Shown here in pieces: positions 10,245 to 17,838 of a stretch of 64,000 nucleotides of DNA. Under the pieces are notes generated by a model. It did not search any database. It saw nothing but the letters and a program-made list of their open reading frames with translations, and had not been told where the DNA came from. Location: the NCBI GenBank assembly GCA_022823165.1, contig JAJDXR010000091.1, forward strand, positions 1 to 64,000, given 5' to 3'. The DNA is from Anaerolineae bacterium. Lineage in GTDB: Bacteria > Chloroflexota > Anaerolineae > Aggregatilineales > Phototrophicaceae. Position 1 is the stretch's first letter. Each line of letters opens with the position of its first letter. The translations under genes were made by a program, and so were the position numbers.

Positions 10245-10829
10245 CTAGCTGCCGGCGCTCTCCGGAAATAGCTGCGTTAATTCGAGTTCAAAACCGGGCA
10301 AGACGTCTTCGCCGGAGAGAAGGCCATCACGGGCGACGAATTCAATATCCAGTCGCGAGCTATCAGCGGCGCGGCAGACATCGACGCCTTTTTCGGCGGG
10401 CCGTACTATCCAGACCAGACTGGCGCCGTATTCCAAGTAGATTTGCGCTTTGCGGCGGATTTGCCGCAGCGAGTTAGAGGGTGAGACGATTTCGATGGCT
10501 AAATCAGGCATGGTTGAGAGGAATCCATCTTCAGGTTGTCCGCTCAAGCGCGCGTGGCTGACGAAGGCGACATCCGGCGCCAGCAACGTACTTCGGTCGT
10601 CGGCGGGGTAAAAGCCGAGTTCAACGTGCACTTCTCCTAAGTCGCGTTCCTCTACATGCATTCCGATAATCCGATCAATGCGACTGGCGAGCCTGCTGTG
10701 GACGCGCTGTACCGGTGACATTTCAAATAGCTCTCCGTCAATCAGGTAAAAGCGGCGGCGATTGAATTCCGGTGTGCGCGCCAAATGCTGGACGCTATCG
10801 ACCGTGTGCAGTTGCTGTTGGATAGCCAT
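10245..10829 (-). CDS. Uma2 family endonuclease (DUF820)
   Basis: This 194-residue PD-(D/E)XK-fold protein has the core residues in LLAPDVAFVS (Asp), LAIEIVSPSN (Glu-x-Val) and RRKAQIYLEYGASLVWIV. Uma2 proteins are very abundant in Cyanobacteria and Chloroflexota, and their role is uncertain (proposed nuclease or mobile-element function). It is convergent with the epimerase, with a 10-nt gap. A second Uma2 gene lies at 25508-26089; the two are not close copies. Confidence 0.88.
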   Translation of the reverse strand: MAIQQQLHTVDSVQHLARTPEFNRRRFYLIDGELFEMSPVQRVHSRLASRIDRIIGMHVEERDLGEVHVELGFYPADDRSTLLAPDVAFVSHARLSGQPEDGFLSTMPDLAIEIVSPSNSLRQIRRKAQIYLEYGASLVWIVRPAEKGVDVCRAADSSRLDIEFVARDGLLSGEDVLPGFELELTQLFPESAGS

Positions 10830-11210: not shown

Positions 11211-12884
11211 ATGTCCAAAACGATGAGAATGTTCCAGCAGCTCAGCACCGGCCTGCTTAACATGCAGCGGGCGCGCGTCAAGGCAATCGACTATGTCATG
11301 ATCAAGATTCCAGCGTCCTTCGCGCCCATTCCCAAAGAGCGCAACCTTTTGCAGCGCCAGATCCTGGGCGCGCCGCCCATGAGCCTGCTGGAATTTGTGG
11401 CGGCGCTGGAGCGCATCGGCGAGGACCCGCGGCCGCTGGGTGTGATTCTCTATTTCCGCGGCTTGTCCGCCAGCACAGCCGACTTGCAGACCATGCGCGA
11501 CGCTATTCTGCGCCTGCGGGACAAGGGCAAACGCGCCCTCAGCTACGCGCCCGGCTATCGCACGATGGAGTACTACGTGGCCAGCGCCTGCGACGAAATC
11601 TTGTTGCCGCCCGGGGGCATGCTGGAGACCTCGGGGCTTTTCAGCCAGCAAGTCTTTCTCAAAGAGGGCTTGGGCGCGGCTGGCCTGCAATGGGACTCGG
11701 TGGCGATTTCTCCCTACAAAGGCGCCGCCGATATGCTGACGCGCGCAGAACCCTCGCCGGAGGGCCGCGAACAGACCAATTGGCTGCTGGATTCGATCTA
11801 CGAGACGGTCATCGACGGCATCGCCGCCACGCGCAAGATGAAGCCGGACGAAGTAACCTACATGATCAACGCCGCCTTGCACATGAGCGACGCCGCGCTC
11901 GACAAAGGCTACGTCGACGGGGTCATGAACGAGGAGCAGCTGCCGGAATACCTGGGCGTCAGCAAGGTCACCCTGTGGGAAGAAGCGGATGGGCAGGTCT
12001 ACCTGCCCGAGCGCGACTTCAGCGGCAAATATGTGGCGGTAGTGTATGGCGGAGGCATGATCGTCGATGGCGAAAGCGCCAACCCGCCCGGCGATACGCC
12101 GCTGCCGATTCCCTTGGTCGGCGGCGAGCGGCTGGGCGATGTCACCTTGAATCAGCAGGTGCGCAATTTAATGCGCGACCCGCAATGCGGGGCGCTGGTG
12201 CTCTATATCGACAGCGGAGGCGGCTCGGCTACGGCCTCGGAGTCGATGGCGTCGGCGCTGGCGCAATTCGCCAAATCGCGGCCGCTGGTGGTTTATATGG
12301 GCGGCGTCGCGGCCTCGGGCGGATATTACATCGCCACGCCGGCGCACTGGATCGTGGCGCAAGCGGGCACCATCACCGGCTCGATCGGCGTGCTCATGGG
12401 CAAGCTGGTGAATAGCGACATGCTGAGCAAGCTGCGCTTCAACGCTTTCTCGTACTTGCGCGGCGACAATGCCGACCTGCTCAGCGGCGAGAGCCATTTC
12501 AGCGCTGACCAGCGCGATATGATCCGCGCCAGCGTCGACCACATCTACGAGCAATTCCTGGGGCGCGTGGCGGAAAGCCGCGGCAAAACCAGCGCCGAGA
12601 TTGACGCTATTGGCGGCGGCCGCGTCTGGACCGGGCAGCAAGCGCTGGCGCATGGACTGGTGGATGAGCTGGGTAATTTGCAGACGGCCATAGACAAGGC
12701 GCGCGCCCTGGCCAAGTTGAGCGCGTCGGCGCCGTCGCTGCTGATCCGCGATAAAGGCAAGCCTATCGGCGTACAAGCGGCCGAGCAAAATCCGGCCGCG
12801 CTGGTGCAGTATGCGGCGGAGGGCGTCGAGCAGTTGAGCAATCGCGCCCAGTGCCTGATGCCCTTTGAGTGGCGGGTGAAGTAG
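11211..12884 (+). CDS. sppA: Signal peptide peptidase SppA (long form)
   Basis: This 557-residue tandem-domain S49 serine protease degrades cleaved signal peptides in the membrane. The long form uses a Lys in the N-terminal domain and a Ser in the C-terminal domain. K170 in SPYKGAADMLTRAE and S369 in GGVAASGGYYIA are in the right places, and IDSGGGSATASE and AGTITGSIGVL are typical. I see no strong N-terminal membrane anchor, so attachment may be peripheral. A GGAAAG site precedes the ATG. Downstream, the DUF488 cassette separates it from a PepF peptidase gene. Confidence 0.92.
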   Translation: MSKTMRMFQQLSTGLLNMQRARVKAIDYVMIKIPASFAPIPKERNLLQRQILGAPPMSLLEFVAALERIGEDPRPLGVILYFRGLSASTADLQTMRDAILRLRDKGKRALSYAPGYRTMEYYVASACDEILLPPGGMLETSGLFSQQVFLKEGLGAAGLQWDSVAISPYKGAADMLTRAEPSPEGREQTNWLLDSIYETVIDGIAATRKMKPDEVTYMINAALHMSDAALDKGYVDGVMNEEQLPEYLGVSKVTLWEEADGQVYLPERDFSGKYVAVVYGGGMIVDGESANPPGDTPLPIPLVGGERLGDVTLNQQVRNLMRDPQCGALVLYIDSGGGSATASESMASALAQFAKSRPLVVYMGGVAASGGYYIATPAHWIVAQAGTITGSIGVLMGKLVNSDMLSKLRFNAFSYLRGDNADLLSGESHFSADQRDMIRASVDHIYEQFLGRVAESRGKTSAEIDAIGGGRVWTGQQALAHGLVDELGNLQTAIDKARALAKLSASAPSLLIRDKGKPIGVQAAEQNPAALVQYAAEGVEQLSNRAQCLMPFEWRVK

Positions 12885-12996
12885 GGCGATTCAGTTCGCG
12901 CGATTCCTGCGAACATTTGAGCGGATTTCATTGACAAGCTCTGCAAATGAGATAGAATTGCGGGTGTTGTCGGTTATTTCCAGGGGAAGCGCATCC

Positions 12997-13509
12997 ATGA
13001 ATGAAATCTTCACCATCGGCTACGGTGGCCGCGATACGAGTGATTTCATTGCCTTATTGAACCAATACGACATTGATACGCTTGTCGATGTGCGCTCACA
13101 ACCCTACTCGCGATACGCGCCGGATTTCAACAAAGAACGGCTGTCCGCTATCTTGAGTCGCAGCGGTATCGCCTATCAATTTATGGGCGATTCGCTCGGC
13201 GGCAGGCCGGACGACAGCGAATGTTATACCTACAGTCCGCAGCGCAAGAAGAAGCTGTTGGACGCCAGGAAATGCGAGACGAGAGACTTCTACCAGCGGG
13301 GGATTTCACGATTGAAACGAGCGCTGTCGGCAGGTCGAAGAATCGCGCTCATGTGCAGCGAGCTAGAGCCGCACGACTGTCATCGGGGTTACGTGCTCGG
13401 CAAAACGCTTGACGACGATGAAACGACGGTCGTGCACATTGGCCGGTATGGCGAACCACTGACGCAATCGCAGATTCGAGAGACGAACTATCAAGAAGCT
13501 CTTCTCTGA
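12997..13509 (+). CDS. DUF488 family protein, first of pair
   Basis: The 170-residue product starts MNEIFTIGYGGRDTSDFIALL at an ATG preceded by AGGGGAA. DUF488 landmarks are present: the TIGY opening, D31-V-R33 in LVDVRSQPYSR, and the C-terminal C120-x-E122...C128-H129-R130 motif (MCSELEPHDCHR). The conserved Cys/His/Arg residues suggest a catalytic or nucleotide/nucleic-acid binding pocket, but biochemical function is not established to my knowledge. It is the first of four tightly spaced co-directional genes (two DUF488, two dual-OB-like) set between sppA and pepF. Confidence 0.88.
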   Translation: MNEIFTIGYGGRDTSDFIALLNQYDIDTLVDVRSQPYSRYAPDFNKERLSAILSRSGIAYQFMGDSLGGRPDDSECYTYSPQRKKKLLDARKCETRDFYQRGISRLKRALSAGRRIALMCSELEPHDCHRGYVLGKTLDDDETTVVHIGRYGEPLTQSQIRETNYQEALL

Positions 13510-13540
13510 TACTCCACCCCACTCTCAGACGGACAATCTA

Positions 13541-14086
13541 ATGACAACTGAGCTGCAAACGATATTTACCATTGGCGTGTACGGCTCTACTGAAGAGTCG
13601 TTTTTTGGCGCGCTCGTCGAGAATGAGATCGAGCTTTTCATTGACATTCGCGCGCGGCGTGGGATGCGCGGTTCGAGATACAGCTATGCCAACAGCAAGT
13701 ATTTGCAAGAGAAGTTGAAAGACTTGGGGATTTACTACGCGCATCTAAAAGAGCTTGCGCCGAACAAAGAAATTCGCGGCATTCAGCAGTCAGCGGATAA
13801 AGAAGGCCGGACAGCCAAGCGCCAGCGCGCGGTGCTGAGCAAGGATTACATTCGAGCGTACAAACGCGACATTCTGAACATCTACAAACGCCAGCCAGAG
13901 TCTAAGTTCAACGCCGAGGCGATGCTTGCCCTAGTCAGGCAAACGTCGCAGTATCCTAGCGACCGGCCGCTTAGGCGCATCCTCCTGTTCTGCGTGGAAC
14001 AGCAGGCGGAGGCATGCCATCGCTCGCTGGTCGCCGAAGCGTGGGAACGACAGCAAGATGTTCGCATTGAGCACATATCCGGTTGA
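13541..14086 (+). CDS. DUF488 family protein, second of pair
   Basis: This 181-residue protein is divergent from its neighbour but keeps the frame of the family: FTIGVYGSTEESFFGAL at the start, D35-I-R37, and C151-x-E153...C159-H160-R161 (FCVEQQAEACHR). It has a central basic insertion (residues 84-118, rich in K and R) that the first copy lacks, which could contact nucleic acid. It lies 31 nt after the first copy and 12 nt before the next gene. The pair looks like two subfamilies kept together rather than a recent duplication. Confidence 0.85.
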   Translation: MTTELQTIFTIGVYGSTEESFFGALVENEIELFIDIRARRGMRGSRYSYANSKYLQEKLKDLGIYYAHLKELAPNKEIRGIQQSADKEGRTAKRQRAVLSKDYIRAYKRDILNIYKRQPESKFNAEAMLALVRQTSQYPSDRPLRRILLFCVEQQAEACHRSLVAEAWERQQDVRIEHISG

Positions 14087-14098
14087 CGGACGGCACAA

Positions 14099-14725
14099 GT
14101 GGCGCACGTTTTGATTGTTGGCAAGACGAATATGGGCAAGCAGCTATGCTTGGGCGGAATCGTGCTGGAGAATCGCCGCAGCGTCCGCCTGCTACCCAGC
14201 AAGGGTACAGGCCATCCACTTGACAAACCGATAGACTTGGGCGATGTCTGGGACATGGTTTTCAATGAAGTTCCAGCTTCAGAGATCGCAGCGCCTCACA
14301 CGGAAGATGTACGGGCAATTAGCGGACGGCGTATCGGGCGCTACTCTGGCAATGAGTTGCTCAAGAAGCTTGTTGATTGCATTACAGTACGGACGATTGA
14401 CCCACAAGAATTATTCGACTCCCATATTCGATTCACGAGAAACGCGCGCGGATATGTTTCGCCAAGACACAGCCTGCCGCAATATAGCACAGGCTTCTGG
14501 CGATTTCGTCTACCTCTATTGCGTATCGCCGAAGATGACGGGTCTCGATTCTGGGTTTTGAGCGAGCGTGGAAGGATAATTCTGGACGTAAAATATGTAG
14601 GGTTGGAAGAAGAAGTTCCAGAGGAAATATCGCCCGGCGCATTGCTACGCTTTTCTCTTGCGCATCCGTTTCCCGACGATCCGCAAAAGCGCTGTTTCTT
14701 GCAGCTCTCGGGTTGGTTCCTCTAA
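14099..14725 (+). CDS. Dual-OB-like protein, first paralogue (208 aa)
   Basis: This starts at a GTG, giving MAHVLIVGKTNMGKQLCLGG. Predicted all-beta character and the shared landmarks EIAAPHTED, LPQYSTGFWRF, LDVKYVG and a C-terminal LQLSGWFL match the following gene, also exactly 208 residues long. The pattern recalls the dual-OB-fold domain family; that assignment is from memory and needs a profile search. The GKTNMGKQ start is not a proper Walker A. Tight spacing to the DUF488 pair suggests a DUF488/OB complex acting on nucleic acid or nucleotides. Confidence 0.75.
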   Translation: MAHVLIVGKTNMGKQLCLGGIVLENRRSVRLLPSKGTGHPLDKPIDLGDVWDMVFNEVPASEIAAPHTEDVRAISGRRIGRYSGNELLKKLVDCITVRTIDPQELFDSHIRFTRNARGYVSPRHSLPQYSTGFWRFRLPLLRIAEDDGSRFWVLSERGRIILDVKYVGLEEEVPEEISPGALLRFSLAHPFPDDPQKRCFLQLSGWFL

Positions 14726-14744
14726 GCAATTTAGGGAGACTCTG

Positions 14745-15371
14745 ATGGATGACGTACTGATAGCGAGCAAAACTAGCAACGGTCAGGAAATATTCTTAGG
14801 TGGAGTAAATCTCACCACCAAAAGAAATGTCCAGCTTGGTCCTGGTCATGTTGGCTACGCTCATCAAAATGACATACAGATGAATATCGGCGAAGTCTGG
14901 CAACTCGAGCTGGGGCGTTTCTCGGAAATGGAAATTTGTGCGCCTCATACTGAAAACTGGAATATCATGTGGAAGGGGTTGCACACCAAAACAGTTCCAC
15001 GTACTGAACTCAGACACTTTATCCTGAATCACTTAGACGCGCCGTACGTACAACCGAGCGCGCTATTTGATGGCTTGGTTGAATTCAACGAAAATGGCAA
15101 AGGGTTTATTGAGGTCGAGGGAAGTCTTCCAAACTATAGCGTCGGTTTGTGGCGATTTCATGATCCGCTACACCACGATTATGACAACAATGAAAACGAA
15201 GACGGTAACTATTATCACTCTGAGAGTAGAGATTTTCGCGTAAAGTACACAGGTGTGTCAAATCCTGAGCGCGTTCTTCCTCCCGACACAATCTTACGAT
15301 TTTTCCTGTCTCAACCCTACGAGTTCATGGGCAAAGACGTTTATTGGCTGCTTTTGTCCGGCTGGTTCTAA
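14745..15371 (+). CDS. Dual-OB-like protein, second paralogue (208 aa)
   Basis: Starting at an ATG with TTAGGGAG upstream, this protein aligns along its length with the preceding one: LIASKTSNGQEIFLGGVNL, MEICAPHTEN, LPNYSVGLWRF, FRVKYTG and LLLSGWF. It carries an acidic/Asn-rich insertion (HHDYDNNENEDGNYYHS) before the fifth shared block. The gene is clearly more AT-rich than sppA or pepF on either side, which fits horizontal acquisition of the cassette. Its stop is 16 nt before the pepF start. Confidence 0.75.
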   Translation: MDDVLIASKTSNGQEIFLGGVNLTTKRNVQLGPGHVGYAHQNDIQMNIGEVWQLELGRFSEMEICAPHTENWNIMWKGLHTKTVPRTELRHFILNHLDAPYVQPSALFDGLVEFNENGKGFIEVEGSLPNYSVGLWRFHDPLHHDYDNNENEDGNYYHSESRDFRVKYTGVSNPERVLPPDTILRFFLSQPYEFMGKDVYWLLLSGWF

Positions 15372-15387
15372 CACAAAGGAGCATTCC

Positions 15388-17184
15388 ATGCCCACAGTCC
15401 CAGTGCGCGCAGACGTGCCCATCGAATCCACCTGGAATCACGAGAGCGTCTTCCCCTCCTTCGACGCCTGGCGGGACGAGTACCAAGACGCCGTCGCCGC
15501 CTTGGGCGACATCGCGCCCTTTCAGGGGACGCTGGCGCAAAGTCCGGCGCGCCTGGCTGAGTGGTTCGATGTACAGTCGGCCCTCGCCCGCCGCGTCTGG
15601 ACGCTGTATATGTATCCGGTCATGTGGCAAGCCTGCGACGGCAATAACGAAGCCATCAAGGGCATGGTGGGGCAGGCGCAGGGCTTGGCCGGACAATTCA
15701 TGGCGGCCGTCGCCTTTGCCGAGCCGGAAATGCTGGCGATGGACGAGGCGACGCTGCTCAGCTGGCTGCAGCGCGACGAGCTCCGCCTGTATCAGCAGCA
15801 TATCGACGACCTGCTGCGCAAGAAGAAGCATGTGCTGTCGGCCGAGGTCGAAGCCGTCCTGGGGCTGCTGAGCGATCCGCTGGGCCGCATCGAAAGCATC
15901 CGCAGCGCGCTCAATGATATGGACTTGACCTTTGAGGCGGCGGTCGACAGCGCCGGCGCGCCACAGCCGCTGGTGCAGAGCACGATCAACAATTTGCTGG
16001 CGGATAGCGACCGCGAGGCGCGCAAGAACGCCTGGCGCAATTACGCCGACAGCTACCTGAAGTTTAACAACACGCTGGCGACGACCTATCTGGCGTCGGT
16101 GAAGAGCAATGTCGTGCGGGCGCGGCTGCGGGGATACGAGAGCGTCCTGCAGGCCAAGCTGTCGCCCAGCAATATCCCGGTCGAGGTCTTCCATAATCTG
16201 ATCGATACCTACAAGCAGCACATCCCCACCTGGCATCGCTACTGGGATGTGCGGCGGCGGGCGCTGGGTTACGACACGATCCATCCCTGGGATATCTGGG
16301 CGCCGCTGACCGCCAATGATCCCGCGCTGAGCTTCCCCGAGGCGGTCGACATGATTGCCGAGGGCATGGCGCCGCTGGGCGCCGACTACGTCGACATCAT
16401 GCGCCGCGGCTGCCTGGAAGAGCGCTGGGTGGATTACGCCATCAACGAAGGCAAATCCGAAGGCGCTTTCTCCTTCGGCGCCTACGACAGCATGCCCTTC
16501 ATCATGATGAGCTTCGACGGCAACCTCAGCTCAATGAGCACCCTGGCGCACGAGCTGGGCCACTCGATGCACAGCTACTACACCCGCGAGACGCAGCCAT
16601 TCGTGTACAGCAACTATTCCATGTTCGCGGCTGAGGTTGCCTCCAATTTCAATCAGGCGCTGGTGCGAGCGCATCTCTTCGCGCGCAACAACGACCGCGC
16701 CTTTCAGCTGGCGCTAATCCAGGAGGCGATGGACAACATCCACCGCTACTTCTTCATCATGCCGACCCTGGCGCGCTTTGAGCTTGAAGTGCATACGCGC
16801 ATGGAAAATGACGAGCCGCTGACGCCGGAGATGCTGAATCAGATTATGTCGGATTTCTACGCCGAGGGCTACGGCAAGACCATGAGCGATGATCCGCAGA
16901 GGACCGGCATCACCTGGGCGCAGTTTGGTCACCTATACGAGGCCTACTACACCTTCCAATACGCCACCGGCATCTCTGCCGCGCATGCCCTTGCCAACGC
17001 CATCCTGGCCGGCGACGACCCTGACACGGTGACGCGCTATCGGGCTTTCCTGCGCGCCGGCGGCAGCGACTATCCGATACCGGCGCTGCAGGCGGCCGGC
17101 GTCGATATGTCGACTCCGCTGGCGGTGGAGGAGACCTTCGCCGTGCTGGAGGGGCTGGTGGATCGGCTGGAGGGCTTGATTTAG
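15388..17184 (+). CDS. pepF: Oligoendopeptidase F family protein (M3 metallopeptidase)
   Basis: This 598-residue cytoplasmic zinc peptidase degrades short peptides. The active site HELGH is at residues 388-392 (LAHELGHSMHSYY) and the third zinc ligand is E416 (MFAAEVASNFNQ). The N-terminal helical domain and the C-terminal YATGISAAHALANAI helix are standard for PepF. AAAGGAG lies 6-7 nt before the ATG. A second, divergent M3 peptidase gene lies at 55542-57377. It may once have directly followed sppA. Confidence 0.93.
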   Translation: MPTVPVRADVPIESTWNHESVFPSFDAWRDEYQDAVAALGDIAPFQGTLAQSPARLAEWFDVQSALARRVWTLYMYPVMWQACDGNNEAIKGMVGQAQGLAGQFMAAVAFAEPEMLAMDEATLLSWLQRDELRLYQQHIDDLLRKKKHVLSAEVEAVLGLLSDPLGRIESIRSALNDMDLTFEAAVDSAGAPQPLVQSTINNLLADSDREARKNAWRNYADSYLKFNNTLATTYLASVKSNVVRARLRGYESVLQAKLSPSNIPVEVFHNLIDTYKQHIPTWHRYWDVRRRALGYDTIHPWDIWAPLTANDPALSFPEAVDMIAEGMAPLGADYVDIMRRGCLEERWVDYAINEGKSEGAFSFGAYDSMPFIMMSFDGNLSSMSTLAHELGHSMHSYYTRETQPFVYSNYSMFAAEVASNFNQALVRAHLFARNNDRAFQLALIQEAMDNIHRYFFIMPTLARFELEVHTRMENDEPLTPEMLNQIMSDFYAEGYGKTMSDDPQRTGITWAQFGHLYEAYYTFQYATGISAAHALANAILAGDDPDTVTRYRAFLRAGGSDYPIPALQAAGVDMSTPLAVEETFAVLEGLVDRLEGLI

Positions 17185-17268: not shown

Positions 17269-17301
17269 ACCTTGCCCAGCACTCTACAGATGGGAAACAA
17301 C

Positions 17302-17838
17302 ATGCAGTCGTTTAGATTCCGCCGTTCAATCCGTCTTCGGGACTACGATTATACGCTCGCAGGAGCATATTTTGTTACGCTTTGTACCTTAAACAGCGTA
17401 TGCATGTTCGGTGACATCGTAGACGGTCAAATGCGGCATAATGACTTGGGTACGCTTGTAGGTCGCGAATGGCAACGTACTGCGCGCGTACGCCCATCTG
17501 TCGACTTGGATGCATTCGTTGTCATGCCAAATCACATTCATGGAATCTTGTTTATCCTTGATGATTCAAATGCCTCGGGCTCATCACACTCGAGCAAGTC
17601 ATTTCCGCCGCGGTCGTCAACCCTGCAATCGGGATCGCTTGGCTCGATCATAGGGCAATTCAAGTCGACGGTCACCAGACGAGCCAGACGCCAAGCAACA
17701 ACATACTGCGGGGCGATCTGGCAACGCAATTACTACGAGCATATTATTCGAAGTTATCAGTCCTTGAACTACTTGCGCAAGTACATTGTAGAGAATCCAG
17801 CCCGGTGGTCTGATGATCGTTTATACGTCGGCTATTAG
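17302..17838 (+). CDS. REP-associated tyrosine transposase (RAYT, Y1_Tnp)
   Basis: The 178-residue protein begins MQSFRFRRSIRLRDYDYTL. The HUH metal motif is MPNHIHGIL and the catalytic tyrosine lies in WQRNYYEHIIR, both in their usual places; LGSIIGQFKSTVTRRAR is the DNA-binding region between them. I chose the ATG at 17302 because GGGAA lies 7 nt upstream; an in-frame ATG at 17290 is possible. All catalytic residues appear intact, so it may still act on the flanking REP hairpins. Confidence 0.9.
   Translation: MQSFRFRRSIRLRDYDYTLAGAYFVTLCTLNSVCMFGDIVDGQMRHNDLGTLVGREWQRTARVRPSVDLDAFVVMPNHIHGILFILDDSNASGSSHSSKSFPPRSSTLQSGSLGSIIGQFKSTVTRRARRQATTYCGAIWQRNYYEHIIRSYQSLNYLRKYIVENPARWSDDRLYVGY

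Follow-up and report, generated by a model that had tools for sequence, protein, structure and literature searches.

Between an sppA-like protease gene and a pepF-like oligopeptidase gene, a 64,000-nucleotide stretch of Anaerolineae DNA (the whole stretch analysed, here called the window) carries four short genes, two for DUF488 proteins followed by two for dual OB-fold proteins (DuOB). The locus raises the question of which of these genes belong together, how one of the families came to be present twice next to a pair of the other, and what such a cassette could do. The features, with their positions in the window, are the following.

11211-12884, plus strand: sppA-like protease gene bordering the exchange site on its upstream side, outside the system.
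12931-12958, plus strand: candidate sigma70-type promoter of the cassette, TTGACA-N16-TAGAAT, 11/12 match.
12997-13509, plus strand: DUF488a (P0001), 170 aa, Pfam DUF488, PDC-M45B-like.
13541-14086, plus strand: DUF488b (P0002), 181 aa, Pfam DUF488, PDC-M45C/M19A-like.
14099-14725, plus strand: DuOB1 (P0003), 208 aa, GTG start, dual OB-fold protein, Pfam DuOB.
14745-15371, plus strand: DuOB2 (P0004), 208 aa, second DuOB, of another allele class.
15388-17184, plus strand: pepF-like oligopeptidase gene bordering the exchange site on its downstream side, outside the system.

Open reading frames and neighbourhoods were called with simple scripts, and their coordinates bear out the four co-directional genes with gaps of 31, 12 and 19 nt given in the preliminary description; the pepF-like gene starts 16 nt past the end of DuOB2. 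The candidate promoter lies 38 nt upstream of the DUF488a start, and most congeners with the same DUF488a type have a similar element (TTGACA-N16-TANAAT) in the same position. Given the good match and the retention of the element in congeners despite the diverged spacer, the cassette is probably served by a promoter of its own. The last gene had been described as AT-richer than its flanks, which holds for DuOB2 (GC 0.455) except that it is not alone: DUF488a and DUF488b (0.538 each) and DuOB1 (0.520) are also AT-richer than sppA (0.634) and pepF (0.628). Searches of the window's own genome found DUF488 and DuOB at the cassette only, and the closest database matches of the cassette are records titled as from sponge symbionts. 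Beyond the border genes, inspection by eye points to a likely REP-associated transposase-like ORF just past pepF (17272-17838), with a 64% relative in the same place in the congener L159, and to a Uma2-like gene upstream of sppA (10245-10829), the copy number and identity of which differ among congeners (two copies in L108).

Both DUF488 proteins score over the curated cut-off (22.2 bits) of Pfam DUF488 (PF04343), P0001 with 77.7 bits (1.4e-21) and P0002 with 39.0 bits (1.4e-9). The profile search that had been proposed for the two 208-residue proteins places both in Pfam DuOB (PF22557, 'Dual OB-containing domain'; cut-off 27), with 60.0 bits (4.5e-16) for P0003 and 28.4 bits (2.1e-6) for P0004, and the blocks EI-APHTE, LP-YS-G-WRF and LSGWF noted earlier are found in both. 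The D-x-R and C-x-E...CHR motifs previously read in the two DUF488 proteins are likewise present, the latter as C-x-E-x5-C-H-R (C120/E122/C128-H129-R130 in P0001 and C151/E153/C159-H160-R161 in P0002). In an alignment of 56 DUF488a/DUF488b pairs, whose DUF488a positions are 22 higher than those of P0001, both paralogues keep D-x-R, C-x-E-x5-C-H-R and a histidine further on at 96-100%; the nearly invariant residues are D31, R33, C120, E122, C128, H129, R130 and H147 in DUF488a, and D35, R37, C151, E153, C159, H160, R161 and H178 in DUF488b. Thus, both proteins have the conserved active-site cysteine and following arginine by which the rhodanese-phosphatase superfamily is recognized. We know of no assigned biochemistry for DUF488 or DuOB, and a sequence search of the PDB found no solved relative of either family. 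In a paper on the DUF488 clade, DUF488 proteins with a conserved Cys and Arg are reportedly predicted to process DNA ends in conflict systems; the Pfam names DuOB and DUF488-N3a probably come from that paper too. The window's proteins differ from the family of that paper in that both fall under the curated cut-off of DUF488-N3a (PF22751; 18.5 and 22.1 bits against 27).

AlphaFold2 models, built from alignments with one plasmid-record row left out of each, reached a pLDDT of 96.4 for DuOB1 and 94.2 for DUF488a. The top PDB matches of the DUF488a model are PRL-1, MKP5 and DUF442 phosphatases together with tetrapyrrole methylases, at E values of only about 1e-2; the predicted fold may be in line with the rhodanese-phosphatase superfamily. 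For the DuOB model, nearly all of the first 24 Foldseek matches in the PDB are, judged by their titles, HIN-type DNA-binding tandem-OB domains (best E 5e-5, probability mostly 0.9-1.0, TM only 0.3-0.39, about 10% identity). Comparison with a viral fold library gave no significant match.

The gene neighbourhoods define the unit. A DuOB search of 400 genomes of the phylum gave 45 matches, and a second one of 396 genomes of the class, with a profile built on the DuOB clade to which the window's proteins belong, gave 50. Among 72 DuOB neighbourhoods chosen without regard to DUF488, two DUF488 genes were found in 56, one in 2 and none in 14, some of which lie at the end of a contig. In the opposite direction, a DUF488a profile from ten closer sequences, run against one genome per species, yielded 80 loci, 59 of which hold DUF488a-DUF488b-DuOB; these 80 loci span Chloroflexota, Poribacteria, Aminicenantes, Latescibacterota, Blastocatellia, Bacteroidota, Phycisphaerales and a Bacillus. 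The unit comprises one gene of each of three kinds: DUF488a, DUF488b and DuOB. Hence the earlier view that the DUF488 and DuOB partners belong together is supported by their adjacency in most genomes, and the accompanying proposal of a two-component complex present in duplicate proved wrong in detail, the second DuOB belonging to an independent allele class. A recent tandem duplication of both genes was rejected because DuOB1 and DuOB2 are each closer to single DuOBs of other genomes and because DUF488a and DUF488b are distinct paralogues that form separate families everywhere. Given that the arrangement recurs in several phyla and that dN/dS is about 0.1-0.16, it is not a matter of chance. 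Other DuOB contexts were also encountered: one DuOB family (f35), seen in L065-L068, lacks a neighbouring DUF488 gene and constitutes a DuOB branch standing alone, and L057 (3664-4797) and L048 (7440-9023) contain, respectively, a DuOB-glyoxalase-like fusion and a DuOB followed in frame by NHL-type repeats.

Within the genus of the window, sppA is present in 32 of the 34 genomes, and 31 sppA-pepF loci, the window included, could be compared. DUF488a-DUF488b-DuOB occupies 12 of these (one cut by a contig end and one together with a restriction-modification pair), the triad with a second DuOB 3 (the window, L157 and L180), and DUF488a-DuOB 1 (L104); 5 others hold DUF488a alone (one copy broken) and 3 a lone DUF488b-like gene (one degenerate). 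DUF488a genes with intact motifs also occur without a partner. A Type II methylase and restriction-enzyme pair (PADLOC MTase_II 7e-30, REase_II 3e-65) stands alone in four loci (L165, L167, L172 and L173) and beside the triad in L106, in all five on the strand opposite to sppA. L163 has only 224 bp between sppA and pepF, and two loci were unreadable. All genomes read have a lower GC content in this interval than in sppA. The insertion suspected in the preliminary description is thereby corroborated, the sppA-pepF interval being a variable insertion site among congeners.

The DuOB gene varies at this site in a way that the adjacent genes do not. Median pairwise protein identity across the 14 genus loci with a full set is 79% for sppA, 82% for pepF, 79% for DUF488a and 63% for DUF488b, against 43% for DuOB, and the 20 DuOBs of the genus fall into 11 classes at 60% identity. 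In the pair L105/L108, identity is 96% for sppA, 82% for DUF488b and 93% for pepF but just 46% for DuOB; in L106/L107, the values are 91, 89 and 92%, and again just 46% for DuOB. The converse is seen in L162/L168, with DuOB 98% identical against 90% for sppA and 77% for DUF488b, and a synonymous divergence (dS) of 0.067 in DuOB compared to 0.70 in sppA. At the DNA level, change points in the swap pairs fall near the ends of the DuOB gene. The genus genomes are drafts, mostly MAGs, so that misassembly is a conceivable cause of any such border; several pairs share the same swap borders, and one DuOB allele recurs in L105 and L161. The DuOB gene alone is replaced through recombination, repeatedly, within the genus. 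DuOB1 and DuOB2 are 34% identical to each other, compared to 83 and 71% (the latter in L104), respectively, to the closest single DuOBs of other genomes; the DuOB1 class comprises six genomes (five besides the window) and the DuOB2 class three, single copies being found in L105 and L104. Because each class occurs singly elsewhere, the window combines two DuOB alleles with a single DUF488 pair, and two alleles together are found in three genomes.

All five genes have dN/dS of 0.09-0.16, and DuOB2 is constrained as well (dN/dS 0.179/1.32 compared to L104); such low values imply that the cassette genes are maintained. Positive selection on DuOB was considered and rejected, the median dN/dS within the DuOB1 class being 0.14, that is, purifying. 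DuOB diversity arises through exchange, not through rapid point change.

Taking these lines of evidence together, we consider it about an even proposition that the four genes are a DUF488a-DUF488b-DuOB operon, PDC-M45-like but divergent, with an extra DuOB, encoding a defence complex that acts on DNA ends and in which DuOB is the exchangeable recognition subunit. Under this model, DUF488a and DUF488b would pair up as a heteromer of cysteine-dependent, rhodanese-phosphatase-type enzymes acting on a phosphate or ribose group at nucleic-acid ends, and DuOB, with its two tandem OB folds, would bind DNA and decide what is attacked, as the fold, the fusion to RecQ helicases and the allele exchange suggest. 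In many relatives, the RecQ part fused to DuOB or DUF488a would open DNA or travel along it. In the window genome, two different recognition subunits probably share one enzyme pair. The role would most likely be defence against foreign DNA, to which the listing of PDC-M45 as a candidate defence system, the site shared with R-M, a cas1-cas2 neighbour, carriage by prophages and the subunit exchange all point. Against this explanation, we count the lack of PADLOC gene enrichment around the Chloroflexota loci (figures below), the weak whole-chain fold matches, the DuOBs of the genus being without RecQ in a genome with no RQC-type RecQ found, the lack of a sign of positive selection, and the draft state of the genus genomes.

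The helicase fusions bear on the substrate and on the leading alternative. In 38 of the 80 loci chosen by DUF488a and in 26 loci of the DuOB survey, a RecQ helicase (DEAD, Helicase_C, RecQ_Zn, RQC and HRDC domains) carries DuOB as its N-terminal part, and this fused form of DuOB is the commonest in the class. DUF488a is fused straight to RecQ, without DuOB, in four loci (L222, L246, L248 and L252), one locus (L221) encodes a DUF488a-NERD-UvrD fusion protein without DuOB, and in L062 a separate RecQ gene follows DuOB. The DuOBs of the window's genus are free, and a search of the window's own genome found no RQC-type RecQ. These fusions tie the system to DNA strands or ends and, along with the OB fold, make the nucleic-acid role proposed earlier for the cassette likely. 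The normal DEAD-RQC-HRDC layout of the fused helicases and the purifying selection would also suit a housekeeping repair or recombination module, in which the DUF488 pair and DuOB(-RecQ) process damaged or dirty ends of the cell's own DNA and the patchy distribution reflects gene loss. This explanation draws further support from the surroundings: compared to 20 random stretches of the same genomes (133 proteins), 20 Chloroflexota loci (130 neighbour proteins) showed no enrichment of PADLOC matches at 1e-10, with 41 families matched near the loci and 86 in the random stretches. Nevertheless, we consider it unlikely, because repeated exchange of DuOB alone is unlike a housekeeping repair operon and because the cassette alternates with a Type II R-M pair at one site, is missing or reduced to a solo gene in close relatives, and is carried by prophages and a plasmid.

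Mobile relatives add a variant composition. A search of plasmids with DuOB1 gave one match, and a search of a phage collection gave none. On the Rhodothermus marinus plasmid pRMAR01 (L103, 8905-12678), DUF488-DUF488-DuOB immediately precedes the cas1-cas2 genes of a CRISPR cluster, and viral contigs contain five triads and 13 DuOB-DUF488b pairs. In three prophage-type pairs that were checked, a gene for an mSLOG-DUF4326 protein (Pfam) follows, which has no match among the PADLOC models. This prophage-type variant was observed in L276 (6345-8028), where a phage terminase and portal adjoin it, and in L273, L275 and L283. Burroughs and Aravind (2023) reportedly place DUF4326 in the same clade as DUF488. 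With mSLOG-DUF4326 encoded by the third gene of the prophage variant and this reported kinship, the rule may be two enzymes of the DUF488/DUF4326 clade plus DuOB. The same observation would suit a defence system based on nucleotide or NAD/ADP-ribose signalling, in which a nucleotide signal rather than DNA gains or loses a phosphate through the DUF488 pair, with DuOB as the binding partner: mSLOG-DUF4326 fills the second enzyme slot in prophages, and DUF4326 has been proposed to process terminal phosphates on ADP-ribose (PMC9503650). We regard such signalling as quite improbable given that RecQ helicases, and not sensors or NADases, are the most frequent fusion partners, and that DuOB resembles DNA-binding tandem-OB domains. 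If the signalling scheme and the DNA-end-acting complex are counted together, a defence role overall is probable, at roughly two in three. A selfish addiction or allelic-conflict module of the toxin-antitoxin kind, in which DuOB exchange would reflect allele incompatibility instead of viral target recognition, would accord with the short operon with its own conserved predicted promoter, the patchy presence at one site and the allele exchange itself, but is very unlikely because all three proteins are conserved with catalytic residues kept in both DUF488s, solo DUF488a genes have intact motifs without a partner, and two DuOB alleles coexist in three genomes.

Returning to the DNA-end-acting defence complex, its closest known counterpart is PDC-M45, a candidate system in PADLOC-DB v2 in which model A is DuOB and models B and C are DUF488, and which thus comprises the same three families in one operon. 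P0001 matches M45B (1.5e-41), and P0002 matches M45C (3e-14) and, slightly better, M19A (7.9e-15). P0003 and P0004 matched none of the PADLOC models, M45A included, even at E 1; relatives such as L033 match M45A at 1e-89. The PDC class is credited to a 2024 preprint by Payne et al. (cited in PMC13356809). Because the DUF488/DuOB trio is this PADLOC candidate, it is already catalogued and is no new system; the literature searched for anti-phage or enzymatic data on PDC-M45 or the triad contained no report. The cassette differs from PDC-M45 in that its DuOBs lie beyond the M45A models and DuOB is doubled, and relatives in the class carry DuOB-RecQ. As far as we checked, the DuOB clade of the window beyond the PDC-M45A models, the second DuOB as an independent allele, and the exchange of DuOB alone at a site shared with R-M are new; the same applies to DuOB-RecQ as the commonest form in the class, with priority for the fusions uncertain.

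Two further systems offer parallels for DuOB itself. The HIN-200 domains of innate DNA sensors (MNDA, p202, IFI16 and AIM2) consist of two tandem OB folds, as DuOB is predicted to do; however, the TM values stay below 0.5, with neither a PDB sequence match nor evidence of shared descent. At TM 0.3-0.39, this resemblance is a likeness of kind rather than proven descent. The pattern of exchange has its parallel in HsdS of Type I R-M, where recombination swaps a single subunit and leaves its partners in place, much as it replaces DuOB alone here. From this pattern, we infer, more tentatively, that DuOB could serve as the exchangeable subunit that recognizes the target in an antiviral complex processing DNA ends, with the constant DUF488a/DUF488b pair re-aimed in the manner of HsdS by swapping or stacking alleles and with DuOB elsewhere aiming RecQ. 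The division of labour into a constant enzyme pair, an exchangeable DuOB and an optional helicase thereby becomes testable: the conserved DUF488 residues are candidates for mutation, and the natural DuOB swaps are models for the question of what sets the target. HsdS and DuOB differ in that they have no known sequence relation, that the whole DuOB gene is exchanged, and that target recognition by DuOB is putative. If the parallel is true, bacteria would re-aim the DUF488 pair via DuOB alleles much as R-M systems swap HsdS.
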